From: Oscillospiraceae bacterium
Lineage (GTDB): Bacteria; Bacillota; Clostridia; Oscillospirales; Oscillospiraceae
Direction of reading: 5' to 3'
Assembly (NCBI GenBank): GCA_017408915.1
Contig: JAFQTS010000079.1
Coordinates: forward strand, 1-32,381
Length of the DNA: 32,381 nucleotides
Positions 1,967 to 21,931 of this stretch are shown in pieces; positions within the stretch are counted from its first letter, which is position 1; every line of letters begins with the position of its first letter. The translations under genes were made by a program, and so were the position numbers. A model generated the notes under the pieces. It was not told where the DNA came from, did not search any database, and was given only the letters and a program-made list of their open reading frames with translations.

Positions 1967-2650
1967 TTAATCTGTGACCAGCGAGAAGTAGTTGCCCACC
2001 AGCTCGTGAGGCAGGAAGTGCAGCACTACCGTACCGCCTGCAGCTTCACCAGTACGCTCACAGAGGTAAATACCACCGGACTCGGGGCCGGGGTCGAGGT
2101 AATACTTGCCGTACTCGAACTCCATGCCCCGCTCTGCGGGAATGGGGTCATCGACAGTGCCAGCGTGAGCCACATCTACCACAACCCACATATTAGGCGT
2201 CGCTTCGGGAGGCCAATCCTCCTGCGTTGTGTGGCTCAAGCGGCATTTGTAGAGGAGACCACTGGTCTTGCCCCGCACCCATGTCTGACGATGCTCTTTA
2301 TCAGTGCCATCGTAGACTGGGATGCTGTTGCCGCTCCACTCGCCAAACAGTCCCTTGTGCTGCAGGGCAGTATTCTCGTCGATATTGCCCGCCTCCGCCT
2401 GTTCCACAAATACCTGCGCCGCAGTGAGGTGGTCGCCGGAGATGTCTACATCGTTTTCCTCCACCACCGTCACCACATCAAGTCCGCCCATCTCGATTTT
2501 ACTTTCCAGCTGGTATGGCACGCCGCCGAAGGCTACGCCCTGCGCCTCTGCCTCAGAGCATAAGCCGTAGCATCCGTTGTCCTGCAGCTTAATGTAGTTA
2601 AGTGCGCCCGTGATCCCCACGGTAGCACCATCTTTAATAATCCTGTACAT
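1967..2650 (-). CDS. Tail-associated carbohydrate-binding protein (CBM5/12-like)
   Basis: The 227-aa protein has an N-terminal segment starting MYRIIKDG, of the kind seen on small phage tail and baseplate proteins. Its middle (about 105-165) holds YDGTDKEHRQTWVRGKTSGL, LYKCRLSHTTQEDW and PNMWVVVD, which fits the chitin-binding-like CBM5/12 pattern of aromatic residues around an LYKC strand. A Glu/Gly-rich C-terminal domain follows. It probably binds host surface glycan as part of the adsorption apparatus. Its ATG overlaps the end of the preceding 46-aa gene, with GGGAGG five bases upstream. It lies between the DGR cassette and the lysis genes. Confidence 0.72.
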   Translation of the reverse strand: MYRIIKDGATVGITGALNYIKLQDNGCYGLCSEAEAQGVAFGGVPYQLESKIEMGGLDVVTVVEENDVDISGDHLTAAQVFVEQAEAGNIDENTALQHKGLFGEWSGNSIPVYDGTDKEHRQTWVRGKTSGLLYKCRLSHTTQEDWPPEATPNMWVVVDVAHAGTVDDPIPAERGMEFEYGKYYLDPGPESGGIYLCERTGEAAGGTVVLHFLPHELVGNYFSLVTD

Positions 2651-2784: not shown

Positions 2785-3171
2785 TCACTTGACGAGCTTT
2801 GCCATGTGGCGCAGATCCTCCAGCCTCGCGCTGTAGAAACTGTGCGCCCATACCCAGTGTTCGGGGTGATCCTCGCGGCGATAGCCGTTTGCGATCTGAT
2901 CGCCCCACAGTCTATCCCACCGCCCTTGATGCCCTGCACCTTTCCGCTGTGTAGCACGCAGGATCCCCTCTATCAGATGCCCCCGCTCTGCGCCGCAGCC
3001 GTCCGTGTTTTCCACAAAGTACCTGTGGCACATTTCCGAAGTGACGGCGCATAGTGCCACACCTTCGTAGACGAGAAAACCGCCCACAACCGGCAGCACC
3101 GTCCCGTAGGGGAGGTTTACCGCCCGCGTCATGCCCATAAACTTTGCCCGTTTTCGTGTGATATAGGTCAT
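2785..3171 (-). CDS. DGR-linked hypothetical protein, translationally coupled to the reverse transcriptase
   Basis: The 128-aa product starts MTYITRKRAKF. Its ATG overlaps the reverse transcriptase stop codon as ATGA (3171-3168), so translation is probably coupled. Visible features are a basic N-terminus, a small beta-rich part (NLPYGTVLPVVGGFLVYEGVALCAVTS) and a Trp/Tyr/His-rich C-terminal half (GRWDRLWGDQ, YRREDHPEHWVWAHSFYSA). No membrane segment or known catalytic motif is visible. My recollection is that proteins of this type recur downstream of DGR reverse transcriptases in gut Firmicutes phages; I cannot check this here. It could be a DGR accessory protein or simply the next tail gene. 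Confidence 0.75.
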   Translation of the reverse strand: MTYITRKRAKFMGMTRAVNLPYGTVLPVVGGFLVYEGVALCAVTSEMCHRYFVENTDGCGAERGHLIEGILRATQRKGAGHQGRWDRLWGDQIANGYRREDHPEHWVWAHSFYSARLEDLRHMAKLVK

Positions 3172-4295
3172 TGCCCCTTCGCGCTCCTTTCGCACTGCTT
3201 GTAGTAACCGTAAAGCCGTTGTACGCGCCCGTGGTCGTGATGCTTGGCGTAGTAGGCCGTGTGAGCCACCAGTGCGTCACGCGCCGCCTGCGCCTTTTCC
3301 TGCGCCCACAACAGCCGTATCTTGCGCCTGCCACGCTTGGCGCTGTCGCGGAAAGCGTGGCGTTTCACGCCGCCCGCCGCTGTCAAGCAAAACTGCACCT
3401 TGCAGAAGCGGAACGGCTTACCCATCGGCACGATCTGCACCTTGTTTTCATTGACGGTAATACCCAGCCTTCCAAACCGTTCCACGAGCTCGTCTTTCAG
3501 CTCACGCAGTTCACCGACATCATGACTTCCTACATAGTAATCGTCCATGTAGTGCCCTGCCATTTTGTAGCGTCGCTGGCATTTAAGCCAGTTATCCACC
3601 GCCGATGGCAGTGCGATCATCTCCTGCTGGCTCGGCTCCATTCCCAGCGGCATCCCCCTGCCCGACGATGTCTCCGGAGCCGCCACTACCACACGGTCTG
3701 CCAGTTCTCGCGCACTGGGAGAGAGGATAAGCTCTTGGTGCCGCTTCAGAATTTGATCTTTTGGCGCATTGGGAAAGAAGGTCTTTAGATCCAGCAGCAG
3801 AACTCCACCCTGTAGGCCGTGTCGGCGATAATGATTGCGTAGTTGCTCCGAGAGCCGTCTGTAGGCAAGGTGCAACCCTTTCCCCGTCTGCGATGCGCCG
3901 TTGTCGTAGATCATGGAGGGTTTGTAGCAAGGTTCTAAGATATCCTTACTCACCAGCTTTTGTACATGGCGGTCTTCTACATGAGGCGCATCGATGGGGC
4001 GTACCTTGCCCCGCTCGCACAGGGTGAAGTGCGACGGCTTATGCCGCTGCTTCCATGTGCCGTCCAGGATCTCCCGCCGCCGCGCCGCTGTGAGAGAAAA
4101 GAGGTGCCGCTCAAAGTTCTGTATGCTCTGCTTATACCGCACCCCTTTGCAGCACGCTTTTCCAAGCCGATACAGCCGTCGGTAGGTGCACCATTGTTCC
4201 GCAGCGCCCAGCTGCATTCCTCGTTGCTGCAGCTTCGCCTTGCGGGCAGCTTTCCTCCGCTGATACCGCGCCTCTCGGCGTTCGTCGTTTGTCAT
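3168..4295 (-). CDS. Diversity-generating retroelement reverse transcriptase
   Basis: The 375-aa protein starts MTNDERREARYQRR at 4295, with GGAGGG eight bases upstream. An upstream extension of the frame to 4394 lacks such support. In order it shows a basic N-terminus, RT motif 1-2 (GKVRPIDAP, about 96-103), motif 3 with catalytic Asp (VLLLDLKTFFPNA, D169), the DGR-diagnostic motif 4 LGMEPSQQ (217-224, where most RTs have QGxxxSP), and the catalytic YMDD at 249-252. A thumb region and a short basic C-terminus follow. It should copy the TR RNA into cDNA with errors at adenines, using the Avd-like partner. No maturase or endonuclease domain is present, which argues against a group II intron RT. 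Confidence 0.97.
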   Translation of the reverse strand: MTNDERREARYQRRKAARKAKLQQRGMQLGAAEQWCTYRRLYRLGKACCKGVRYKQSIQNFERHLFSLTAARRREILDGTWKQRHKPSHFTLCERGKVRPIDAPHVEDRHVQKLVSKDILEPCYKPSMIYDNGASQTGKGLHLAYRRLSEQLRNHYRRHGLQGGVLLLDLKTFFPNAPKDQILKRHQELILSPSARELADRVVVAAPETSSGRGMPLGMEPSQQEMIALPSAVDNWLKCQRRYKMAGHYMDDYYVGSHDVGELRELKDELVERFGRLGITVNENKVQIVPMGKPFRFCKVQFCLTAAGGVKRHAFRDSAKRGRRKIRLLWAQEKAQAARDALVAHTAYYAKHHDHGRVQRLYGYYKQCERSAKGQ

Positions 4296-4537
4296 AGTAG
4301 TGGCCCTCCGTACAGTCTTGTTGTCGGGGCGGGGTTCTAACTGCGTAGACCAAGGACATGAAGCAGGGGTTGCCGCCGACTCCCCGCCATGCACGCAAGC
4401 GTCCGTCCGTAGCCATCAGAGGGCGATTTTGAACCCTTTGCGGGGCCGCAGGAAGCACATCTCCTCTCGCGTAAGGTCTTTCTTTCACCAGCGGTTACTT
4501 TTGCGACCCACCCGCCTTTTTGGCAGGCTCGTGAGAT
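4296..4537 (-). ncRNA. Spacer between TR and reverse transcriptase, probable 3' part of the DGR template RNA
   Basis: No supported gene is seen in this 242-base stretch. Open frames across it lack ribosome-binding sites and look like GC-rich shadows. In the Bordetella phage BPP-1 DGR, the template RNA extends from avd through TR into the TR-RT spacer, and this spacer is needed for priming. By analogy this segment should be the spacer part of the template RNA. The only clear signal is the GGAGGG site for the reverse transcriptase at the left end. I did not resolve a specific fold. Confidence 0.5.
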
Positions 4538-4656
4538 CCGGGGCGCAGCCAAGCGAATTGTTCGCATTGTTGTTGTTCGCCGTGCCGTCCGTATTCACAA
4601 TGCAGAAGTTGTTGGAGTTCGACGCATTGACCGAGCGCAGCCACGCATTGACTGCC
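4538..4656 (-). repeat. DGR template repeat (TR)
   Basis: This aligns without gaps to the VR at 5268-5386 (offset 730). There are 15 mismatches in 119 bases, and every one is a template A on the minus strand. The TR contains 29 such adenines, so 15 of 29 are changed and 0 of 90 other bases are. Translated in the target frame, TR is rich in AAC/AAT codons (NNNN and NN runs). 11 of 12 Asn codons are replaced in VR, by Gly, Phe, Asp, Tyr, Ser or Ile. The GC-rich 3' end (GGCTGCGCCCCGG) is identical in both copies and is the likely IMH-type initiation segment. TR lies between the Avd-like gene and the reverse transcriptase, the classical order. Confidence 0.98.
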
Positions 4657-4714
4657 CACTCCGCACTGCTACACGGCACTGTTTCAGATGTGCACCTAAG
4701 AAAAGCCTCTCGGC

Positions 4715-5173
4715 TTATCTCCGTTTCTTGTCGCTGTTGATGACAGCCTTCAGCAGCTCATATTCCCGCGAGATCGCCTCGCCGGTACGCTGCGCCATAG
4801 CGTCCAGCTTTTCCGCAGCCTTCTTACCCGCCACAGTTTTCCCGCCTGCCGTCTGAAGCGCACCCTCGGGATTTCGGCTCAACAGCTCATAGATCACTTC
4901 CAGCCCATCGTCCAGCGCGTGGAGATTCGCCCACGCTTCCGCGAGATACGCTTCTCGTTTGGCTCTCTTTACCTCTGTGTTTGGGTATGTTTCTTGCGCT
5001 TTGATGCAGTTGATGCGCACTTGCCGCGCAAGATGGATGGTATCAGCCGCCAGCAGCCGCTGATACCGCGCCGATAGCTTCGTGCAGAAATCCAGCGTAC
5101 CGTGAAAGATCTCGCCCGCTAATCTTACGAACTCGGCGCGACTTACGCTCCTGTCCTTCGCCAGTCTGCTCAT
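4715..5173 (-). CDS. Avd-like DGR accessory protein (four-helix bundle)
   Basis: The 152-aa protein is almost entirely helical and ends in a basic tail (INSDKKRR). Segments such as AEFVRLAGEIFHGTLDFCTKLSARYQR and AWANLHALDDGLEVIYELLSR fit helices of a bundle. Avd proteins are pentameric, positively charged four-helix bundles of about 125 residues that bind the reverse transcriptase and template RNA. This one is slightly longer. The middle is rich in Lys/Arg (NTEVKRAKREAYLAEAW, GGKTVAGKKAAEK). The assignment rests on size, helical content, charge and exact placement between the VR gene and TR. AAGGTGAGGCT precedes the ATG. Confidence 0.85.
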   Translation of the reverse strand: MSRLAKDRSVSRAEFVRLAGEIFHGTLDFCTKLSARYQRLLAADTIHLARQVRINCIKAQETYPNTEVKRAKREAYLAEAWANLHALDDGLEVIYELLSRNPEGALQTAGGKTVAGKKAAEKLDAMAQRTGEAISREYELLKAVINSDKKRR

Positions 5174-5236
5174 AGCCTCACCTTCTTTCTTCTACCGTTC
5201 TGCTCGCTTCCGCTCGCAGATAGTCTCTCGATCTAT

Positions 5237-5251
5237 GGCCCCTGCGGGGCC
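5237..5251 (-). other. Hairpin/cruciform just downstream of the VR
   Basis: GGCCCC-n3-GGGGCC forms a 6-bp inverted repeat with a 3-base loop, 16 bases beyond the VR on its 3' side and just after the target stop codon. DGR systems with this architecture often carry a short GC-rich stem-loop a few bases downstream of the VR that raises retrohoming efficiency. It lacks a U-run, so it is unlikely to be a terminator. Confidence 0.65.
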
Positions 5252-5253
5252 GA

Positions 5254-6288
5254 TTAAGCCGCGAAAGCCGGGGCGCAGCCAAGCGAAATGCTCGCAAAGC
5301 TGTAGCTCGCCGTGCCGTCCGTATTCACAATGCAGAAGGAGTAGGAGTCCGACGCAAAGACCGAGCGCAGCCACGCACCGACTGCCGTTGTGCGGGCATC
5401 GTGGCGGTAGTGGATCTTGGCATTTCCGGCCTTATAGTACTGGTACTGCTGTTGGTTGTTCTGCTCGGCGCTGTTGGCATAACTGCGCGTGCCAAAAACC
5501 TCAAACTCTGCCAACAACCAAAAGTAGTCTGTTGTAGCGGTCACATAGCTTGCGGTATTACTGCCGCCGCCCGTATTGTCGCTGTACTTGGCAGTGGCCT
5601 TCAGCACCGAGCGCAGCTCTGCGCTGATGCAGGCCATAAGGCTGCCGCTCAACGGCGAGCTTGGGCCATTGTTGTTGCCCAACAGCGTCACGCGCATGTA
5701 GCTGTTCTTCCAGCCACCGCTATTGGTGGCAGAGCTATTCATGTGGAACATAGTGCCGCTGCCCGAGCTGTTGTAGCTGCTGTCGCAGAAGGCAATCTGC
5801 GTGCCGCTGATTTTGCCGAACTTGAAGTGGATGCGGTTCGCGCCCTCCTTGCCGCTGTTGTGGTCAAATCCGATAATGTACGCGCCCACCGTAAGACCGG
5901 ACACATTGAGGATGCCCCATGTGCCGCTCAGCGTCTCGTTTTTGATGTCTCCCACGCTCCACCAATTGGCCGCCTGTCCCGCGTCGCTGATCTCTCCGAT
6001 GACGCTCCAGCTGTTGTCGTTCAGCGTAGACGAGACATAGGTCACATTGATGGTCATCTCGTCCACGAACTCCCGCGTATAGGTTTGGCTGTAGCTGCCG
6101 AGGCTCGCCGTGATCGTCCACGTGCCTGCCTCCAACCCCTTAAAGACCCACACGCCATTATTCTCTGCGGCGGTCTTTACCTCGCCGTCCTTCGTTGCCG
6201 TTACGGTAGAACCCGCAGGGGCATTAACGGTAAGGGTGTTGCCCTTACCGCCGCCACTCCCGCCGCCAAGTCTCATAATATTTGCCAT
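5254..6288 (-). CDS. DGR target: variable receptor-binding tail protein (DUF6273/CLec-like C-terminus)
   Basis: The 344-aa protein starts with a Gly-rich segment and an Ig/PEGA-like domain (about 15-90: NTLTVNAPAGSTVTATKDGE, then VWVFKGLEAGTWTITAS). The C-terminal domain (about 95-344) has SWSVIGEISDAGQAANWWSVGDIK, YIIGFDHN, a Ser/Asn-rich core and the terminal WLRSV...LGCAPAF. This matches the DUF6273 / C-type-lectin-like (formylglycine-enzyme) fold commonly used as a DGR display scaffold. The last 40 residues are the VR, so ligand-contact residues are being rewritten. It follows the collagen-like fibre by 2 bases and is probably displayed at its tip. The protein ends 13 bases past the VR. 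Its ligand is unknown. Confidence 0.92.
   Translation of the reverse strand: MANIMRLGGGSGGGKGNTLTVNAPAGSTVTATKDGEVKTAAENNGVWVFKGLEAGTWTITASLGSYSQTYTREFVDEMTINVTYVSSTLNDNSWSVIGEISDAGQAANWWSVGDIKNETLSGTWGILNVSGLTVGAYIIGFDHNSGKEGANRIHFKFGKISGTQIAFCDSSYNSSGSGTMFHMNSSATNSGGWKNSYMRVTLLGNNNGPSSPLSGSLMACISAELRSVLKATAKYSDNTGGGSNTASYVTATTDYFWLLAEFEVFGTRSYANSAEQNNQQQYQYYKAGNAKIHYRHDARTTAVGAWLRSVFASDSYSFCIVNTDGTASYSFASISLGCAPAFAA
5268..5386 (-). repeat. DGR variable repeat (VR), 3' end of the target gene
   Basis: This is the diversified copy of TR (4538-4656), encoding the segment from V of AVGAWLRS to the end of LGCAP in the target protein. Variable residues read G, F, D, Y, S, then S, Y, S, F, S, I. 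The invariant scaffold is AWLRSV-AS-S--FCIVNTDGTA----A--SLGCAP. The Asn in IVNTDGT is the only TR Asn left unchanged. The identical GC-rich 3' end marks the likely IMH. Confidence 0.98.
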
Positions 6289-6290
6289 AC

Positions 6291-8810
6291 TTAGTCACCT
6301 CGCTTAATCACACGGATGGGGATGTCGATGGTGGGCACATCGCCATAGGCTTTCAAGGTGATGTTGCCCGCAGCCTGCCCGCCGTCTTGGATGTTCGCCG
6401 CCTGCAGCGCCTCCAGCTGCTCTGCCGTGATATCCACCGCAGGCAAAATCTCTTGGTTGCTGGTGGTCGTTACGCCGTCCACCGTGAGGATGTATGCGCC
6501 GTTGCTCCATCCGTTAGCTGCAAGAGTAGCGGTGATGATGCTTGCCTTTTCCGCCGCCCCAATATCCGCAGGGCTCAGCGCATCGCTGCCGCCCGTCATG
6601 TGGCTTGCCTTATGGGCAGAGGGAGGCATGGTCGCAGGAAGCTGACCCGTGGGCACTTTGCCATCGTCGCCGAGGCTTGCCACGCCGCCTGCTGCGCCCT
6701 TCTGCGAGGCGGGAAGCATGGCGTCCCACTTCTGTCGCTCTGCCGCCGTAATGTGCTTGGTGGTGTCGCTGATGTGGTCGGGTACAGCCGCCAGTGCGTT
6801 ATTCAAGCCCGTCTCCGTGCCCGTGTAGCCGCCGTCCACTGCTGCTTGGAACGCACTCTTTCCGTCTGCACCCGCGGGGCCGGTTGCGCCCTGCGGGCCT
6901 TCGGGGCCGATTTCGCCTTGGGGGCCAACAGGGCCTTGGATGCCCTGCGGGCCTTCGGGGCCCGTTGCACCCGTTTCACCCTTGGGGCCCTGCGGGCCAG
7001 TTTCACCGGTGTCGCCCTTGGGGCCTGTTGCGCCCGTGTCGCCCTTGGGGATAACGAAGTCAAATACAGCTGCGTTTTCCGTGCCGCTGTTGGTCACTTC
7101 CGCCGCGCTGCCCGCCGCGCCCGTGGTCACCTTGCCTACAGATACGGTAGCCGCCTCACCCTGTACGCCCTGCGGGCCTGTGTTTCCCTGTACGCCCTGT
7201 TCGCCTTTCGGGCCCGTTTCACCCTGCGGGCCCTGCGGGCCTGTCTCGCCCTGCAAACCCTGCACGCCCTGCGGGCCCACGGGGCCTGTGTCGCCTGTAT
7301 CGCCTTTGGGGCCCTGCGGGCCTTGGGCACCGGTATCACCCTTGTCGCCCTTTGGGATCACAAAGTTCAGCTTTGCCGCGCTGGGCGTGCCGCTGTTGGT
7401 CACCTGTGCCGCGCTGCCTGCTTCACCCGTAGTCACCGTGCCGATTTCCACAGTACCTGCGGGGCCCTGTACGCCCTGTGCGCCCTGCGGGCCCTGCGGG
7501 CCTGTTGCGCCCTGCAGCTTGCCAACGCTGACCCAGTCGTTCTCGTTCTCCGACCACACGTAGCACTCGCCGTTTTCCTCCACCATGTACATCAGCGTGT
7601 TGCCGTTGGGGATGGCGTTACGCAGTGCCGCCAGCGTGGGGTACACATCCTCAACGTAGAGGCTGCGTCCGTCTTTACCGTCTGCGCCTGCCACGCCCTG
7701 CGGGCCCATCGGGCCCTGTGCGCCCACTGGGCCTGTTGCGCCTGTGGGGCCTGCGGGGCCCTGTTCACCTCTGTCACCCTTTGCACCCGTTGCGCCCGTG
7801 TCGCCCTTGTCGCCTTTCGGGCCTGCGGGGCCTGTCTCGCCTTGCGGGCCTTGTACGCCCTGCAAACCCTGCGGGCCTTGGATGCCCTGCGGGCCTTGCT
7901 GCCCTGCGGGGCCAGTCTCACCCTGCGGGCCTTGGTCGCCCGCAGCACCTTTTGCGCCTGCGGGGCCTTGGGGGCCTGTTGCGCCGGCAGGGCCGCGCAG
8001 TGCTTCCAGCTGTTCCGCCGTAAAGTCTGCGTAGGTGAAGGGCTCACCCTTTTCGCCTTTTTCACCCTTAGCACCTGTTGCGCCCGTTGCGCCTGCAGGG
8101 CCGGTTGCACCGGCAGGGCCTGCTTCGCCCTGCGGGCCTTGGATGCCCTGCGGGCCAGCCATGCCTTGAATACCCTGCGGGCCTCGCACGCCCTGCGTAC
8201 CAGCAGGTCCCTGTACGCCCTGCGGGCCCTGCGGGCCGCGCACCGATACGCTGGGAGGCGTGATAGCCGTGTCCATGATAGTAAAGCTCATGACGCCCGT
8301 ATCGGGGTCGATGCTGGGCACAACAGACGGGCCAACGGGGCCAATGGGGCCAACGGGGCCCGTCGCGCCTGTCTCGCCCTTTTCGCCGGTGTCACCCTTA
8401 TCGCCCTTCATGCCCGTTACGATGGTGTTCACGCCGTCATCCGTCACAGTGCCGTTGGCAAACTTCATGCGGCTGCGCTGGGGCATAATGTTGTTGTTGG
8501 CATCGAGAATGAGGTGGCCCGAAGATCCGGTAGCCTCATAATTGTTGCCGTCCGTACTCACTTCCAGCACATTGTCCCCATTGAGGCGAATGTACTGGAT
8601 GCTGTCATCGCCACGTTTGAGGATGACTTCCACGCCGCTCGATACCAGCTCATCCACCAAATCGTTGAACTTTTCCGCCACCGCCTCGCGGATCAAGCGG
8701 TCAAAGAGTTTCTTGGTTTCCTTCGGATCTCCCGTCACCACATCCGGCGCCGCCGATACACCTTTGGTCTCAATGTCGTTCTGCGTGATTTTGTAGTTGT
8801 CAAGACTCAA
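6291..8810 (-). CDS. Collagen-like tail fibre protein
   Basis: The 839-aa protein has an N-terminal head of about 130 residues ([20 protein letters not shown], then helical [23 protein letters not shown]), probably the virion attachment part. Long Gly-X-Y blocks ([26 protein letters not shown]) run from about 140 to 680. They are broken by two near-identical inserts ([19 protein letters not shown]...[14 protein letters not shown] and [19 protein letters not shown]...[14 protein letters not shown]) and by a [21 protein letters not shown] module. The C-terminus carries a globular domain with [17 protein letters not shown], common in phage fibres. It should form a trimeric shaft. The G-X-Y coding makes the DNA highly repetitive and open in other frames. 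Confidence 0.92.
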
Positions 8811-8823
8811 TGTGATCGCCTCC

Positions 8824-10692
8824 TTATCGTTTGTATTTTCCGCCGTTCTCCCGCCACATTACCGCGAAGGCGTACAGGCCGAAGGGCTCGTTCATCTCTG
8901 CGTTCTGCAACCGGAAGCGGACTTTGTCCACTTTCTTGATCTTGATCTTGCTGTAGAGTGTGCGGGGCGTCCGGTCGTTGGAGAAGCTCAGCTTGGCAAA
9001 GTCGATGTACGACCAATCGAAGTATCGTGCTTTCGCCTCGGCGTCGTATACATCGTCCCACGCACCTCGGCGCTGGGCGAAGATCTTCACGCCCGTTTGG
9101 ATCGCCGCCGCGAGGCGCACCGCCAATCCTGTGAAGGTCTTGGAGTTATAAAACGCCTGCCCGTCGAAGTCCGCCGTCTCCCAATAGGCATCGATGGCCG
9201 CCCCGTCGTCGTTGTAGCTGGCAGGGGACTCCGCGTCCTCATAAAAGGCCCGCAGCTGCCCTTCCGCCGTGGCGAAGTACAGCACGTTGTCCTCCACCCA
9301 CAGTGCCGTCGCCGCGATGTCGGGGAAGTAGTAACACTCGTATTGATAGGAGCTGTAGGGACTGTTCTTTTCATACGCCTTCTGCTGCATGTCGAGGAGG
9401 TACAGTGTCCCATCCAGCGCCAGCACGTAGAAGTCGCGGAACACCGTCGCGTGTGCCTCCGTCAGTCCCTCGGCCTCCGTGATGGCGCTCTTGATGTAGT
9501 AGCTCCGCTCCTGCGAGTATTTCTCGCCTGTCAGCTCCTCCGCCGTAATGGCGTATACGCCCCGCTCCGTCAGGAACAGCGGTTCTTTGTCCGTCCGGGC
9601 AAAGCTGTCGGTAGACACCGCGTCCTGTCCAATGAGGGTGTTGCTGATCCGAAAGAGAGCCTCGCCGTCCTCGTCCAGCGATCCCGTCCGCACCACCACG
9701 TTGCGCCCGTCTGTAGATCCTTTCAAGAAGGCCGCCAGCGCGTTATTCAGCACCGCATAGCCCACGATCTCCGCCCCGTCGCGGCTCAGCTTCGTGTATC
9801 CTGTATCGGGGAAAAACGCGGGATCTTCAAAGCCGGAGTAGTAGTCCATGCCGGGCTTATCGGGGTTGCCCGTGAGGAACACTCTGTCCGGTGCGCCGCC
9901 CACGCCGAACACCGCCGCCAGCGTGCACCCGTTGATGGTCTCGGCGTAGCCTTCCCGCGTCTTTGCCGCCGTGATTTTCACATTATCCATGCCCGTCACG
10001 GGGCTCTGCCCCGGTGCCGTGGCAAAGGTCACTGTTCCTTCGGCGCGATCCACAGTGAAGTCTGTGCCTTCGGTCTTGGTGACCCATTCGCCGTCGCTGT
10101 TCAGCACCTCCGCCGTCACCTCGTCCTCGTCCAGCTCTTGTGCCGTCAGCTGATAGACCGTGTCCTCCGCCGTGCCGAGGAAGGTCTCTGTCCACTTCCT
10201 GCCCAGCAGGTTCAGCGCCTCATAAGTGGTGCCGCCTCCCGTGGGCTCACGGGAGATGATCACCGTGGGGACATAGGCGCTCTCGCTCACGCTTGCCAGC
10301 GTTTCCCCGTCATACACTTGGTAGTTTTCTCCATCCAAGAGATAGAGCTTCTCGTCGAAGATGAAGCTGCGGCTTCGTGCCGCCGCCATCTCTCCCAATG
10401 CCTCAAAGCCTTCGCCCCCGTCCCAGCGGTACAGCTGCTCACCTGCGTGTACCAGCGTTTCCTCGCCGAGACGGTGCACGGCCCATACCTTCGCTCCCTC
10501 CGGCGCCGTGCCGAGTGTGTGGTATCCCGTCCTTTTGCGTACCTTGCCCACCTGATCGCGGATCATGTTGGGCGCAGCAGGGGAGCGGGACTTATCCACA
10601 TTGGAGGGGCTGTTGTTAAGATCCACGCCCCGGAAGTATTCCACCTTGGCGCTGTATTCCTTTGCCTGCGTCGGCACTGCAAACTGTGCCAT
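8824..10692 (-). CDS. Tail hub/nozzle protein (podoviral tubular B or gp10-like, beta-propeller)
   Basis: The 622-aa protein begins with sequence typical of short-tail hub proteins ([44 protein letters not shown]). Repeated beta-rich units follow, such as [44 protein letters not shown] and [20 protein letters not shown], which resemble propeller blades. The C-terminal part has a mixed fold ([21 protein letters not shown]). In T7 and P22 relatives this protein caps the tail tube or plugs the DNA channel. It sits between the connector gene (3-base gap) and the fibre, which fits. Calling it a nozzle rather than a stabilisation protein is inference. Confidence 0.72.
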
Positions 10693-10695
10693 GGT

Positions 10696-11349
10696 TTACC
10701 ACCACCCCGTCGTATTCCGACGCATGGCCACCGCGTAGCCACCGCCGCCGCTCTCCGTCCATGCCGCGCGGATCTTCTGCAGCCCGTCTTCATACTCGTT
10801 CCGCAGCACCGTGGCAAGGGCGAGGTCATCGTCTTTATAGATCTCCGCCGCCATGTAGATGGGCACCAAGGAGGCGCACTCCTCGTGTACGTCCAGCACC
10901 GTCTCGTCCGCCGTGTCGCGGCTCACCGGCGTGGGATACGCCTTGTAGATCACCGTGTACACACCTGCCACGTCACCCGGCAGCACCAGCACGTCGTCGC
11001 CCACCACGCGGTAGTCCTCTGCGTCGCCGTAGATTCCGTTGCTGTCCAGCATCAGCTGATGCAGTGCGCGAAAATCGGGGAGGTATTCCTTCAGCCGTAC
11101 CTGCACCGTGCCATCGGCAACACCCGGCCACCAGCCGATGGCGTCGCCCTCGTCTGCATCCACACCCACGGCGATCTTCGCCTCTTTCAGGAGCGGTCTG
11201 CCCACCAGCGACAGCTGCATCATGGCCTCGTTGGCCTTGCCGGGCATGGCGTTCAAATATTCCTCTGTGCTGTCATCCTGCAAAATGGTCACGCCCTCGT
11301 TGGCGTACATGGTCTGCAGGCAGATCAGCTTCGCTTCGCCCCATTTCAT
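10696..11349 (-). CDS. Head-tail connector / tail tubular A-like protein
   Basis: The start is set at ATG 11349 (MKWGEAKLICLQTMYANEG), with AGGAGG eight bases upstream. The frame can be extended to a TTG at 11370 but that lies in the ribosome-binding region. The 217-aa product has an N-terminal helical part (STEEYLNAMPGKANEAMMQLSLVGRPLL), a beta-sandwich middle (VQVRLKEYLPDFRALHQL, YRVVGDDVLVLPGDVAGVYTVIYKAYP) and a C-terminal helix that includes ECASLVPIYMAAEIYKDDDLALATVLRNEYE. The C-terminal pattern is typical of gp4/gp11-like adaptors that bind below the portal. Position between the capsid and hub genes supports this. Confidence 0.7.
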   Translation of the reverse strand: MKWGEAKLICLQTMYANEGVTILQDDSTEEYLNAMPGKANEAMMQLSLVGRPLLKEAKIAVGVDADEGDAIGWWPGVADGTVQVRLKEYLPDFRALHQLMLDSNGIYGDAEDYRVVGDDVLVLPGDVAGVYTVIYKAYPTPVSRDTADETVLDVHEECASLVPIYMAAEIYKDDDLALATVLRNEYEDGLQKIRAAWTESGGGGYAVAMRRNTTGWW

Positions 11350-17239: not shown

Positions 17240-17503
17240 TTACCACGCCTTGTAAAAAGCTCTGCGGAATCGGTACAATTGCTCCTCGCTGACATAGTGT
17301 GCCAGTGCGATGGCGGTGATGGATTTTTTCGTGCACATCACGTCGAAGAGCGCAGCAGAGTAAGCCCCTGCGCATCGTAGGCACAGGCGCTGGATCTTCC
17401 GTTGTACTCTCGGCGGTTGGCTCTCGTAGGTCAAGCAGGTATAGCGGATCAGACCCTGCTTCTCCTCGCTCAGAGGCACGCCGCTGAGCTTCTTAAAGCC
17501 CAT
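17240..17503 (-). CDS. Small ArpU/sigma-like HTH protein, probable late transcription regulator
   Basis: The start is ATG 17503 (MGFKKLSGVPLSEEKQG), with AAGGAG upstream, overlapping the HUH stop by 11 bases. The 87-aa protein is helical. Its C-terminal half (CTKKSITAIALAHYVSEEQLYRFRRAFYKAW) looks like an HTH of the sigma-region-4 / ArpU type. An internal CLRC pair is present. Such small regulators lie just before the terminase genes in many Firmicutes phages and activate late genes. The strong hairpin and TTGACA hexamer directly downstream fit this. The family call is by pattern only. Confidence 0.6.
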   Translation of the reverse strand: MGFKKLSGVPLSEEKQGLIRYTCLTYESQPPRVQRKIQRLCLRCAGAYSAALFDVMCTKKSITAIALAHYVSEEQLYRFRRAFYKAW

Positions 17504-18320
17504 CGTCGTCTCCTTCCTCACCCAGTTTCGACAGCGTCATTTCCTTGTGTCCGCCCACCTGACGGGCGGGATTCTTCTTGCGGGGCACATAACGCACGAT
17601 GTTCTGCCCCTTCTCAGGGTCATACTTGGTACCGGGCAGCTCCGTGGCACCTGTGGGCAGCCGCAGCTGCGCGCCACTATGTACGATCTCGCGGCGCACC
17701 ACAGGCTTTTCCATGTTGCGGCTGACGGAATACTTCTTCTCGTCGGGCACGTTGCGGCTTTGGCTGATGATGTACTTTGCCAAGGGATAGTAATCGTCCT
17801 GATGCCGCAGGAACTGTACGTCCACGCTGCCCTTGCCCCAAATCTTTTCCACATCCTCGTCAAACAGGCGCAGCACACCGTCAGCGAAGGAGAATCCCTC
17901 GCCGTTCATGATCACGTGGACATGAGGGCGTACCAGCTCACCTGTCTCGCCGTCGATCTCGCTGGGTGCGATCACCCACTTTGTCACCACGCCCTGCTTT
18001 TTTCTGCGGTACACGACGCGGTCAACAAACTTCTTCGCCTCTGCCTTGGCATCTTCAAAGGTACCGCCGCAAGCAGTAAGGGCTTCGTCGGAGAAGGTGA
18101 GGGTCAGCCACACGTCATTGGCCTTCATGTTGCAGTTGAGGGTGCGGGTCAGCTGGAGAACTGCATACTCGCGGTTTCCCTCGATCTTGCGCTCCGAGCT
18201 GTTGCCGCGGATCCGTCCGCCCCGCTTGCTGGGTCTGCGCATAAGGCGGCTTTTTCTCCGTTCCTTCACCTTGCCGGAGATAATGGTCGTGACCATGTAC
18301 AATCCCTCCTCCTTCTTCAT
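17493..18320 (-). CDS. HUH endonuclease, rolling-circle replication initiator-like
   Basis: The 275-aa protein has the three HUH motifs: motif I WLTLTFSDE (71-79), motif II PHVHVIMNG with H133 and H135 binding metal, and motif III YYPLAKYIISQ with Y183 as likely nicking Tyr. It resembles the ORF2/G2P-type replication proteins of small phages and plasmids. A basic N-terminus (about 18-45) may bind DNA, and the C-terminus is Lys/Gly-rich. It should nick one strand at an origin and stay joined to the 5' end. Two in-frame ATGs (18320 and 18296) each have a GGAGG-type site, so either could be used. A structured non-coding region lies directly upstream. Confidence 0.85.
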   Translation of the reverse strand: MKKEEGLYMVTTIISGKVKERRKSRLMRRPSKRGGRIRGNSSERKIEGNREYAVLQLTRTLNCNMKANDVWLTLTFSDEALTACGGTFEDAKAEAKKFVDRVVYRRKKQGVVTKWVIAPSEIDGETGELVRPHVHVIMNGEGFSFADGVLRLFDEDVEKIWGKGSVDVQFLRHQDDYYPLAKYIISQSRNVPDEKKYSVSRNMEKPVVRREIVHSGAQLRLPTGATELPGTKYDPEKGQNIVRYVPRKKNPARQVGGHKEMTLSKLGEEGDDDGL

Positions 18321-21103: not shown

Positions 21104-21931
21104 TCACGCCGTCGCCCTCTCGGCTCCGGTCTTCCGTTGTTTTCTCTCCTTGGGTCTGCCTTCTTTGTCCCGCGGCGAGCCCCGCTTTACCCAGTCCTTC
21201 CATCCATCGAAGAAGTCCTTGTACAGCACCTCCGGCGGCAGCTTCATGGGATTTTCCTCGCACGCCTCACGCTCGTTGCGGAAGCCGTGCACCTGTACGA
21301 TCCGCTGCCCCATGATCTCAATGGTCACCAGCGGCCTGTCGGGCTTATCTGCCCGCCGCAGGAACAGGATGGTGGTCTTTCCGTTAAGGTGCCGCTCGGC
21401 ATAGCCGCCCACGCAGTGCTTCAGGATCGCTCCCTCGCGCTTGATCTCCGCCACGCCCTTGGCCACACGGATGAAGTAGCCGTCCTTTTCGTAGTTGTAC
21501 TGCTTCTCCAGCTTGGGCAGCAGTCCCTCCCGGAAAGGCTTTTCCTTCTCCGCGTTCTGCATGGCAGCGTAGGCGCCCGTGGCGGTGTCGTGCTTTTCGT
21601 GGAGATTCTTCGGCATGCGGATCAGCGGATTTTCCATGTCGTAGCCAATGGCCTCCGCCGCCTTTAAGTAGTCGATCAGCATCTGCACCGTGGTGCTGAG
21701 CCTGCCTTCTCCGCTCTCCCGCCGCAGATAGGCGAGGAGCTTTCCCGCGCTGATGCCCCACGCTTTCAGCTTTCCCTGCAGCCACCCCAGCCACTCGCCG
21801 TGAGGAAGCTGCGCCTTCGCCTCATTCAGTCTCTTTCCGATCTCCAAGATCGCGGCGCCTGCCTGCGCCTTGTAGAAAAGGATCTCCTCTGTAATGGCCT
21901 CAATAGGCCGATAGTTTGCCATCTCGTTCAT
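21104..21931 (-). CDS. DUF3102 / PcfJ-like hybrid protein
   Basis: The 275-aa protein joins two recognisable parts. Residues 1-75 look like DUF3102 (EILFYKAQAGAAILEIGKRLNEAKAQLPHGEWLGWLQGKLKAWGIS). From about 85 on it resembles the C-terminal part of PcfJ-like proteins (DYLKAAEAIGYDMENPLIRMPKNLHEKHD; ILKHCVGGYAERHLNGKTTILFLRR; IVQVHGFRN). PcfJ is encoded by the conjugative plasmid pCF10 and its role is unclear. A much larger PcfJ is usual, so this is a short or fused form. The C-terminus is very basic (KEGRPKERKQRKTG). AGGAGG lies eight bases before the ATG. It may bind nucleic acid or help DNA transactions before packaging. Confidence 0.7.
   Translation of the reverse strand: MNEMANYRPIEAITEEILFYKAQAGAAILEIGKRLNEAKAQLPHGEWLGWLQGKLKAWGISAGKLLAYLRRESGEGRLSTTVQMLIDYLKAAEAIGYDMENPLIRMPKNLHEKHDTATGAYAAMQNAEKEKPFREGLLPKLEKQYNYEKDGYFIRVAKGVAEIKREGAILKHCVGGYAERHLNGKTTILFLRRADKPDRPLVTIEIMGQRIVQVHGFRNEREACEENPMKLPPEVLYKDFFDGWKDWVKRGSPRDKEGRPKERKQRKTGAERATA

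Follow-up and report, generated by a model that had tools for sequence, protein, structure and literature searches.

An RT-2 RNA in the template spacer of a phage diversity-generating retroelement from an Oscillospiraceae contig

Two copies of a 119-bp repeat lie close to a reverse transcriptase (RT) gene in a draft genome of an Oscillospiraceae bacterium (assembly GCA_017408915.1), which raises two questions: whether they form a complete diversity-generating retroelement (DGR) and where copying of its template would begin. The whole contig carrying them (JAFQTS010000079.1, 32,381 nucleotides) was analyzed and is called the window here. DGRs offer a natural means of diversifying selected proteins, and the priming of their cDNA has been worked out mainly in phage BPP-1. 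An earlier note, made from the sequence alone, had described the locus as a complete DGR in the classical order, and this was borne out: a target gene with a variable repeat (VR) is followed by avd, a template repeat (TR) and the RT, as indicated by the repeat alignment, the RT profile, the spacer RNA, the predicted Avd fold and relatives with the same layout. We consider it very likely that a complete phage DGR is the best explanation of the whole. Such a DGR is ordinary in its class, and the findings on its RNA are the part worth following.

The TR and VR align over 119 bp without gaps and differ at 15 positions, with 15 of the 29 TR adenines and none of the 90 other bases being changed (A>T 8, A>G 6, A>C 1; P = 1.9e-11 for all 15 falling on TR adenines). 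The TR contains 12 AAY asparagine codons, 11 of which are altered in the VR (to Gly, Phe, Asp, Tyr, Ser, or Ile). Both sets of counts reproduce those of the earlier note. The VR is located at the 3' end of the target gene, and no TR codon can be turned into a stop by substitution of an adenine. A search of the 1.85-Mb draft genome with the TR returned these two copies only (E values of 4e-57 and 6e-37). Extension of the pair beyond its 3' end added A4537 in the TR opposite C5267 in the VR and one C/T difference, and a looser extension gave 127 bp with 18 differences, 17 of them at A. The contig is from a draft bin and the region is repetitive, which would allow for ordinary repeat divergence or an assembly error without any adenine-directed transfer, but the confinement of every difference to 29 of 119 positions, and the same pattern in relatives, make this exceedingly improbable.

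Relatives were fetched with RT, target, and gene A queries, gene A being the gene that overlaps the end of the RT gene. A finder of ungapped pairs, in which non-A mismatches were penalized, reported a pair in 130 loci. After filtering (at least 80 bp, at least 75% of differences at A, and the TR downstream of the VR), 105 loci remained, corresponding to 79 unique pairs. With the last 12 bases omitted, the TR adenines of these pairs were read in the VR as A (1242), G (545), T (341), or C (279), and non-A bases were altered at 33/6356 positions. Because the finder and the filter both favor A differences, these counts describe the class and are no independent test. Prior to the 75% filter there were 97 unique pairs, including repeats in other proteins, with 1414/1739 differences at A.

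The RT had been recognized by the motifs LGMEPSQQ and YMDD, and both are present. Comparison of its profile with the PDB placed the BPP-1 RT nearest (8ub7_A, titled DGR RT; E value of 5e-25), with group II intron RTs behind (3.5e-13), and a profile comparison with BPP-1 Brt using hhalign gave a probability of 99.1. The small gene between the target and the TR had been called Avd-like on the basis of position and size, without a fitting Pfam family; the name is now supported by a predicted fold that is that of Avd. Searches of Pfam, NCBIfam, and PDB sequences gave no sequence link to Avd, nor did comparison of profiles with BPP-1 Avd, and no relative was found when the protein was used as a query against genome contigs. 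The predicted fold suggests that its product is Avd. In PMC5883640, Avd homologues are reported in phages Mushu and Lagaffe only, a stated gap that the fold assignment addresses.

Analysis of the spacer between the TR and the RT revealed that it is an RT-2 RNA (Rfam family RF03077), matching positions 1 to 222 of the 222-position model with 122.6 bits against a gathering cutoff of 40. RT-2 scored above gathering (83 to 175 bits) in 19 of 32 further loci scanned, all 19 of which carry the cassette of the window's clade. It did not reach this score in the other 13, namely, three loci without a DGR (L089, L166, and L157) and ten chosen for RTs of other clades. In 19 of the 20 loci where both were placed, the window included, RT-2 starts 1 to 25 nt past the TR end. 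A scan of 245 order-level genomes gave 5 RT-2 matches above the cutoff and 3 weaker ones, all directly before an RT identified in these genomes. A second family, RT-18 (RF03021), matched in 4 of these genomes, in 4/4 with an RVT_1 gene after it and a TR before it; the TRs, located with the same A-favoring finder, had 15/15, 17/17, 15/15, and 13/15 differences at A. One phage contig (L123) has two RTs (203-1441 and 4167-5378), one behind an RT-18 RNA and the other behind an RT-2 RNA. The RT RNA families are said to come from Weinberg 2017. The Rfam 15 paper lists RT-2 among families with improved structures. No stated link between RT-2 and DGRs was found in the literature searched, which was incomplete in coverage, and the link may therefore have been published already.

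RT-2 ends at the RT start codon and is typed in Rfam as a small RNA gene only, as would suit an independent RNA that regulates, for example as the leader of the RT gene, and has no part in priming. Its starting point so close behind the TR, a covarying helix that joins the two (see below), and the location of the BPP-1 priming spacer in the same place (PMC12875486) argue against this, and we regard it as quite unlikely. Regulatory and primer roles could coexist. The catalogued RT-2 structure, as part of the template RNA, is probably what starts copying.

To locate the start of the cDNA, we aligned approximately 30 nt of the TR end plus the spacer from 26 loci. The alignment fold predicts a helix in which the bases just past the TR boundary base pair with an element preceding a GGAG...CTTCC hairpin. 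Of the alignment cells for its six pairs, 95.5% are paired. There are 38 two-sided changes, and the covariation was 0.669, compared with 0.237 in shuffles (0/500 as high) and no more than 0.21 when the helix was slid. Helix positions 4 to 7 were paired in 91% of comparisons within a locus and 61% across loci (46 unique strand pairs; 0/2000 permutations as high; 7/105 loci had no placeable motif). In the window, 4536-4530 pair with 4465-4471 through six pairs and one A.C mismatch, and A4465 is invariant in 26/26 rows. Immediately 5' of the helix, a TR A stands opposite a VR C in 68/68 unique pairs having a TR A at this base; a further 8 pairs were read with C in both copies (some from other clades or misplaced), and 3 have no motif. 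The A4537/C5267 difference is fixed at the boundary throughout the clade and is no product of mutagenesis. Since the boundary A is always C in the VR, whereas copied adenines are read as A, G, T, or C, we infer that the boundary base is not copied and that the cDNA should begin 5' of it. A4465 would be the primer.

BPP-1 served as a control. Its TR and spacer have a 7-bp complementarity (TR123-129/Sp48-54) at the corresponding location, two bases ahead of Sp A56, the presumed primer; longer complementarities found in that scan rank above this one. In BPP-1, the final TR/VR mismatches begin at TR120, just past G117, presumably the cDNA start. An internal spacer adenine has been reported to prime BPP-1 cDNA within the initiation of mutagenic homing site (IMH*) (PMC12875486).

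We think it likely that the orphan RNAs RT-2 and RT-18 each represent the spacer half of a DGR template RNA. Within the RT-2 clade, whose phages differ in their structural genes, pairing of the TR 3' end with the spacer would set an internal adenine at the start site, with the cDNA beginning directly 5' of the fixed A/C boundary. The BPP-1 priming duplex would thereby be kept where the Avd sequence is no longer recognizable, and the DGR core would sit as a cassette with a DUF6273 lectin-like gene on one side and its partner, gene A, on the other. In the proposed mechanism, a transcript running from avd through the TR and spacer would bind the RT and Avd. The spacer would fold back on the 3' end of the TR and present the internal adenine as a primer, the cDNA beginning just 5' of A4537, and the RT would misread template adenines. 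The cDNA would then replace the VR up to the boundary, aided by a hairpin behind the VR, and the product would be a varied C-terminal surface on the DUF6273 lectin-like protein.

A fairer measure of activity than the filtered pairs is the comparison of VRs between relatives sharing flanks. The VRs of L097 and L098, the flanks of which have 0/400 and 0/1000 mismatches, differ at 16/31 TR-A and 0/98 other positions. The corresponding values are 17/31 and 0/92 for L139/L140, 15/27 and 3/99 for L106/L107, 21/32 and 2/94 for L081/L082, and 23/37 and 0/64 for L136/L137. In both loci of the last pair, the RT and gene A frames are broken; either diversification preceded the break or sequencing error broke the frames. 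With flanks approximately 10% diverged, L002/L006 differ at 17/33 TR-A and 1/89 other positions, and more diverged pairs (L031/L044 and L059/L063) have up to 5 non-A changes. The earlier note had named a lack of VR diversity among relatives, or non-A changes at an equal rate, as evidence against its view; near-identical relatives differ, and almost only at TR-A sites. Members of the clade are or recently were active. In L015, L017, and L020 (3/10 target-query loci), the contig ends inside the VR or no more than approximately 50 nt behind it, which suggests assembler behavior at hypervariable sites. As separate observations, the TR of L035 differs from those of L097 and L098 at 6 positions, yet the flanks are identical over 1400 bases, and the TR of L008 (pair at 3766-3889 and 4639-4762) has only 18 adenines, 2 differences from the VR, and, at the boundary, the C typical of VRs, as though the VR had overwritten it or the assembly had mixed up the copies. 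Three type II hammerhead ribozyme matches lie near the L008 DGR (9561-9626, 9800-9864, and 10885-10950, minus strand).

The claim that the window's own system has clearly been active holds for past adenine-directed transfer in its lineage. For the window, the evidence extends to past transfer only, because no sibling phage was found: the sole megablast match among phages was 47 bases long and lay within mycobacteriophage tail genes, the target had only weak relatives in 32 genus genomes, and a virion protein query returned the window alone from the same genomes and no match from viral contigs. The TR-junction pattern matched one contig, which had no BLAST similarity to the window.

The hairpin behind the VR gives some reason to question a fully working window copy. 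A stem of at least 7 bp is present within 80 nt behind the boundary in 55/75 unique loci with enough sequence, compared with 1.4% of shuffled sequences, and the loop is a G..A tetraloop in 58 of the 75, with GRNA in 39 of these 58. Stems of 7 to 10 bp with GRNA loops have been described, and a shorter stem or altered loop reduces BPP-1 homing (PMC3240598). The window departs from this pattern. Its perfect hairpin has 6 bp and a 3-nt loop (GCA), and the one at the usual distance has a GGAA loop and two mismatches (Table 1); a repeat search (at least 20 nt) found no hairpin in the window. This departure is the main reason to doubt the full efficiency of the window copy, and it would fit a once-active DGR that is now decaying, with a frozen VR and a damaged target-site hairpin. 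We nevertheless consider decay unlikely. The RT and Avd-like reading frames are open, with the RT motifs kept, the RT-2 score is well above the cutoff, the TR is still AAY rich, and 12/75 loci, some with diversified VRs, also have no perfect stem of at least 5 bp within 80 nt. A complete DGR remains the preferred reading.

The target has an Ig-like domain (residues 1 to 85) followed by a C-terminal DUF6273 domain. Its AlphaFold2 (AF2) model has a mean confidence (pLDDT) of 90.4, with 9qa6 first among its fold matches and Ig domains next, and DUF6273 has been reported as C-lec-like (PMC10743442). The earlier note had described a tail-tip system, a placing that derives from the adjoining collagen-type tail-fiber gene. 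This goes beyond the evidence; the P22-type portal suggests a short-tailed phage. The target is a probable attachment protein, and is probably a receptor-binding part displayed with the collagen-type fiber.

Gene A is a near-constant companion of the RT. Of 122 confirmed viral gene A loci, 80 were kept, and 77 of these have an RT upstream; among the other 3, the upstream sequence of L078 and L148 is too short for a judgment. Conversely, gene A was found in 13/13 and 43/44 RT loci, the single exception being truncated, and 5 of the 6 order-level genomes (of the 245) with a strong gene A match have the close RT clade. A role for gene A as a DGR accessory factor was considered and rejected. L089, L023, L166, and L196 have gene A and a DUF6273-type gene without a DGR, and L016/L018 have a DGR without a gene A match, so we favor gene A as a partner of the lectin protein. 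The DUF6273-type gene followed by gene A, without avd, TR, or RT (L196, 6828-10104; L089, 2703-5790; L023, 4521-6680; L166, 894-1808), is an orphan or pre-DGR arrangement. Of 44 contigs with a related RT, 12 are titled as Oscillospiraceae and 5 as Selenomonadaceae.

Pfam and PHROG matches in the window include an integrase, both terminase subunits, a P22-type portal, and a major capsid protein, which makes the window the whole or most of the genome of a temperate phage. The minus-strand order is collagen-type gene, target with VR, small helical gene, TR, spacer, RT, gene A, gene B, a small gene of family phrog_1863, holin, and amidase (Table 1). Elsewhere in the window, a small-phage-type replication initiation protein (phrog_3584, PF23343 REP_ORF2-G2P; 17493-18320, minus strand) is encoded between the terminase subunit genes of this double-stranded DNA phage, and a PcfJ-like gene (21104-21931, minus strand) includes a DUF3102 part.

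Table 1. Features of the DGR region in the window
Feature	Position	Strand	Basis or remark
Collagen-repeat tail-fiber-type protein, upstream of target	6291..8810	-	PF01391, PHROG tail families
DGR target, 344 aa, Ig-like N-terminal domain and DUF6273	5254..6288	-	PF19789 31.9 bits (cutoff 23.5), AF2
VR, 119 bp	5268..5386	-	TR/VR alignment
Perfect GC hairpin, 6 bp, GCA loop, just behind target stop codon	5237..5251	-	
Candidate target-site hairpin, GGAA loop, stem of 8 positions including two G.A mismatches side by side	5200..5219	-	Usual distance
Avd by predicted fold, 152 aa, phrog_30516	4715..5173	-	
TR, 119 bp, 29 A	4538..4656	-	TR/VR alignment
IMH* boundary base, A in TR, C in VR (5267)	4537	-	
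TR-side strand of TR-end/spacer helix, directly 3' of boundary base	4530..4536	-	
Spacer strand of TR-end/spacer helix	4465..4472	-	Includes A4465, candidate priming adenine
RT-2 RNA (RF03077), template RNA spacer, ends at RT start codon	4283..4512	-	122.6 bits
DGR reverse transcriptase, 375 aa	3168..4295	-	PF00078 56 bits, phrog_1423, profile matches
Gene A, phrog_29409, ATG overlaps RT stop	2785..3171	-	
Gene B, conserved N-terminal part and weak CBM5/12 match	1967..2650	-	

Three features, namely, the covarying helix, the invariant boundary base, and a spacer that belongs to a known Rfam family, open the priming step to tests throughout a large phage clade. They also provide an annotation handle, in that an RT-2 or RT-18 match beside an RT marks a DGR and the end of its TR.

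Comparison with known systems sets the window among familiar elements. The window spacer is a full-length match to the Rfam RF03077 model, which begins after the TR end and has no TR-end/spacer helix. The Tentaclins (PMC10743442) likewise combine a DUF6273-type variable domain with an Ig-like domain in a DGR target, but in the reverse order. BPP-1 shares the order target, avd, TR, and RT, the RT homology, the Avd fold, and the complementarity between TR end and spacer. It differs in an Avd without a sequence link and in a spacer of 144 nt rather than 242 nt (4296-4537); the window target is a DUF6273 protein. Where annotated, the Faecalibacterium phages have myovirus-type tail genes (FP_Taranis; PMC5883640), unlike the window with its P22-type portal and separate collagen gene. 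They are nonetheless alike in their DGRs: the RTs of FP_Taranis, Pioen, and Roos are 50 to 51% and the targets 46 to 47% identical to those of the window, the Pioen and Roos targets are DUF6273 proteins (PMC11792537), and FP_Taranis has the same gene order, with the small helical gene, the RT-2 spacer, and genes A and B.
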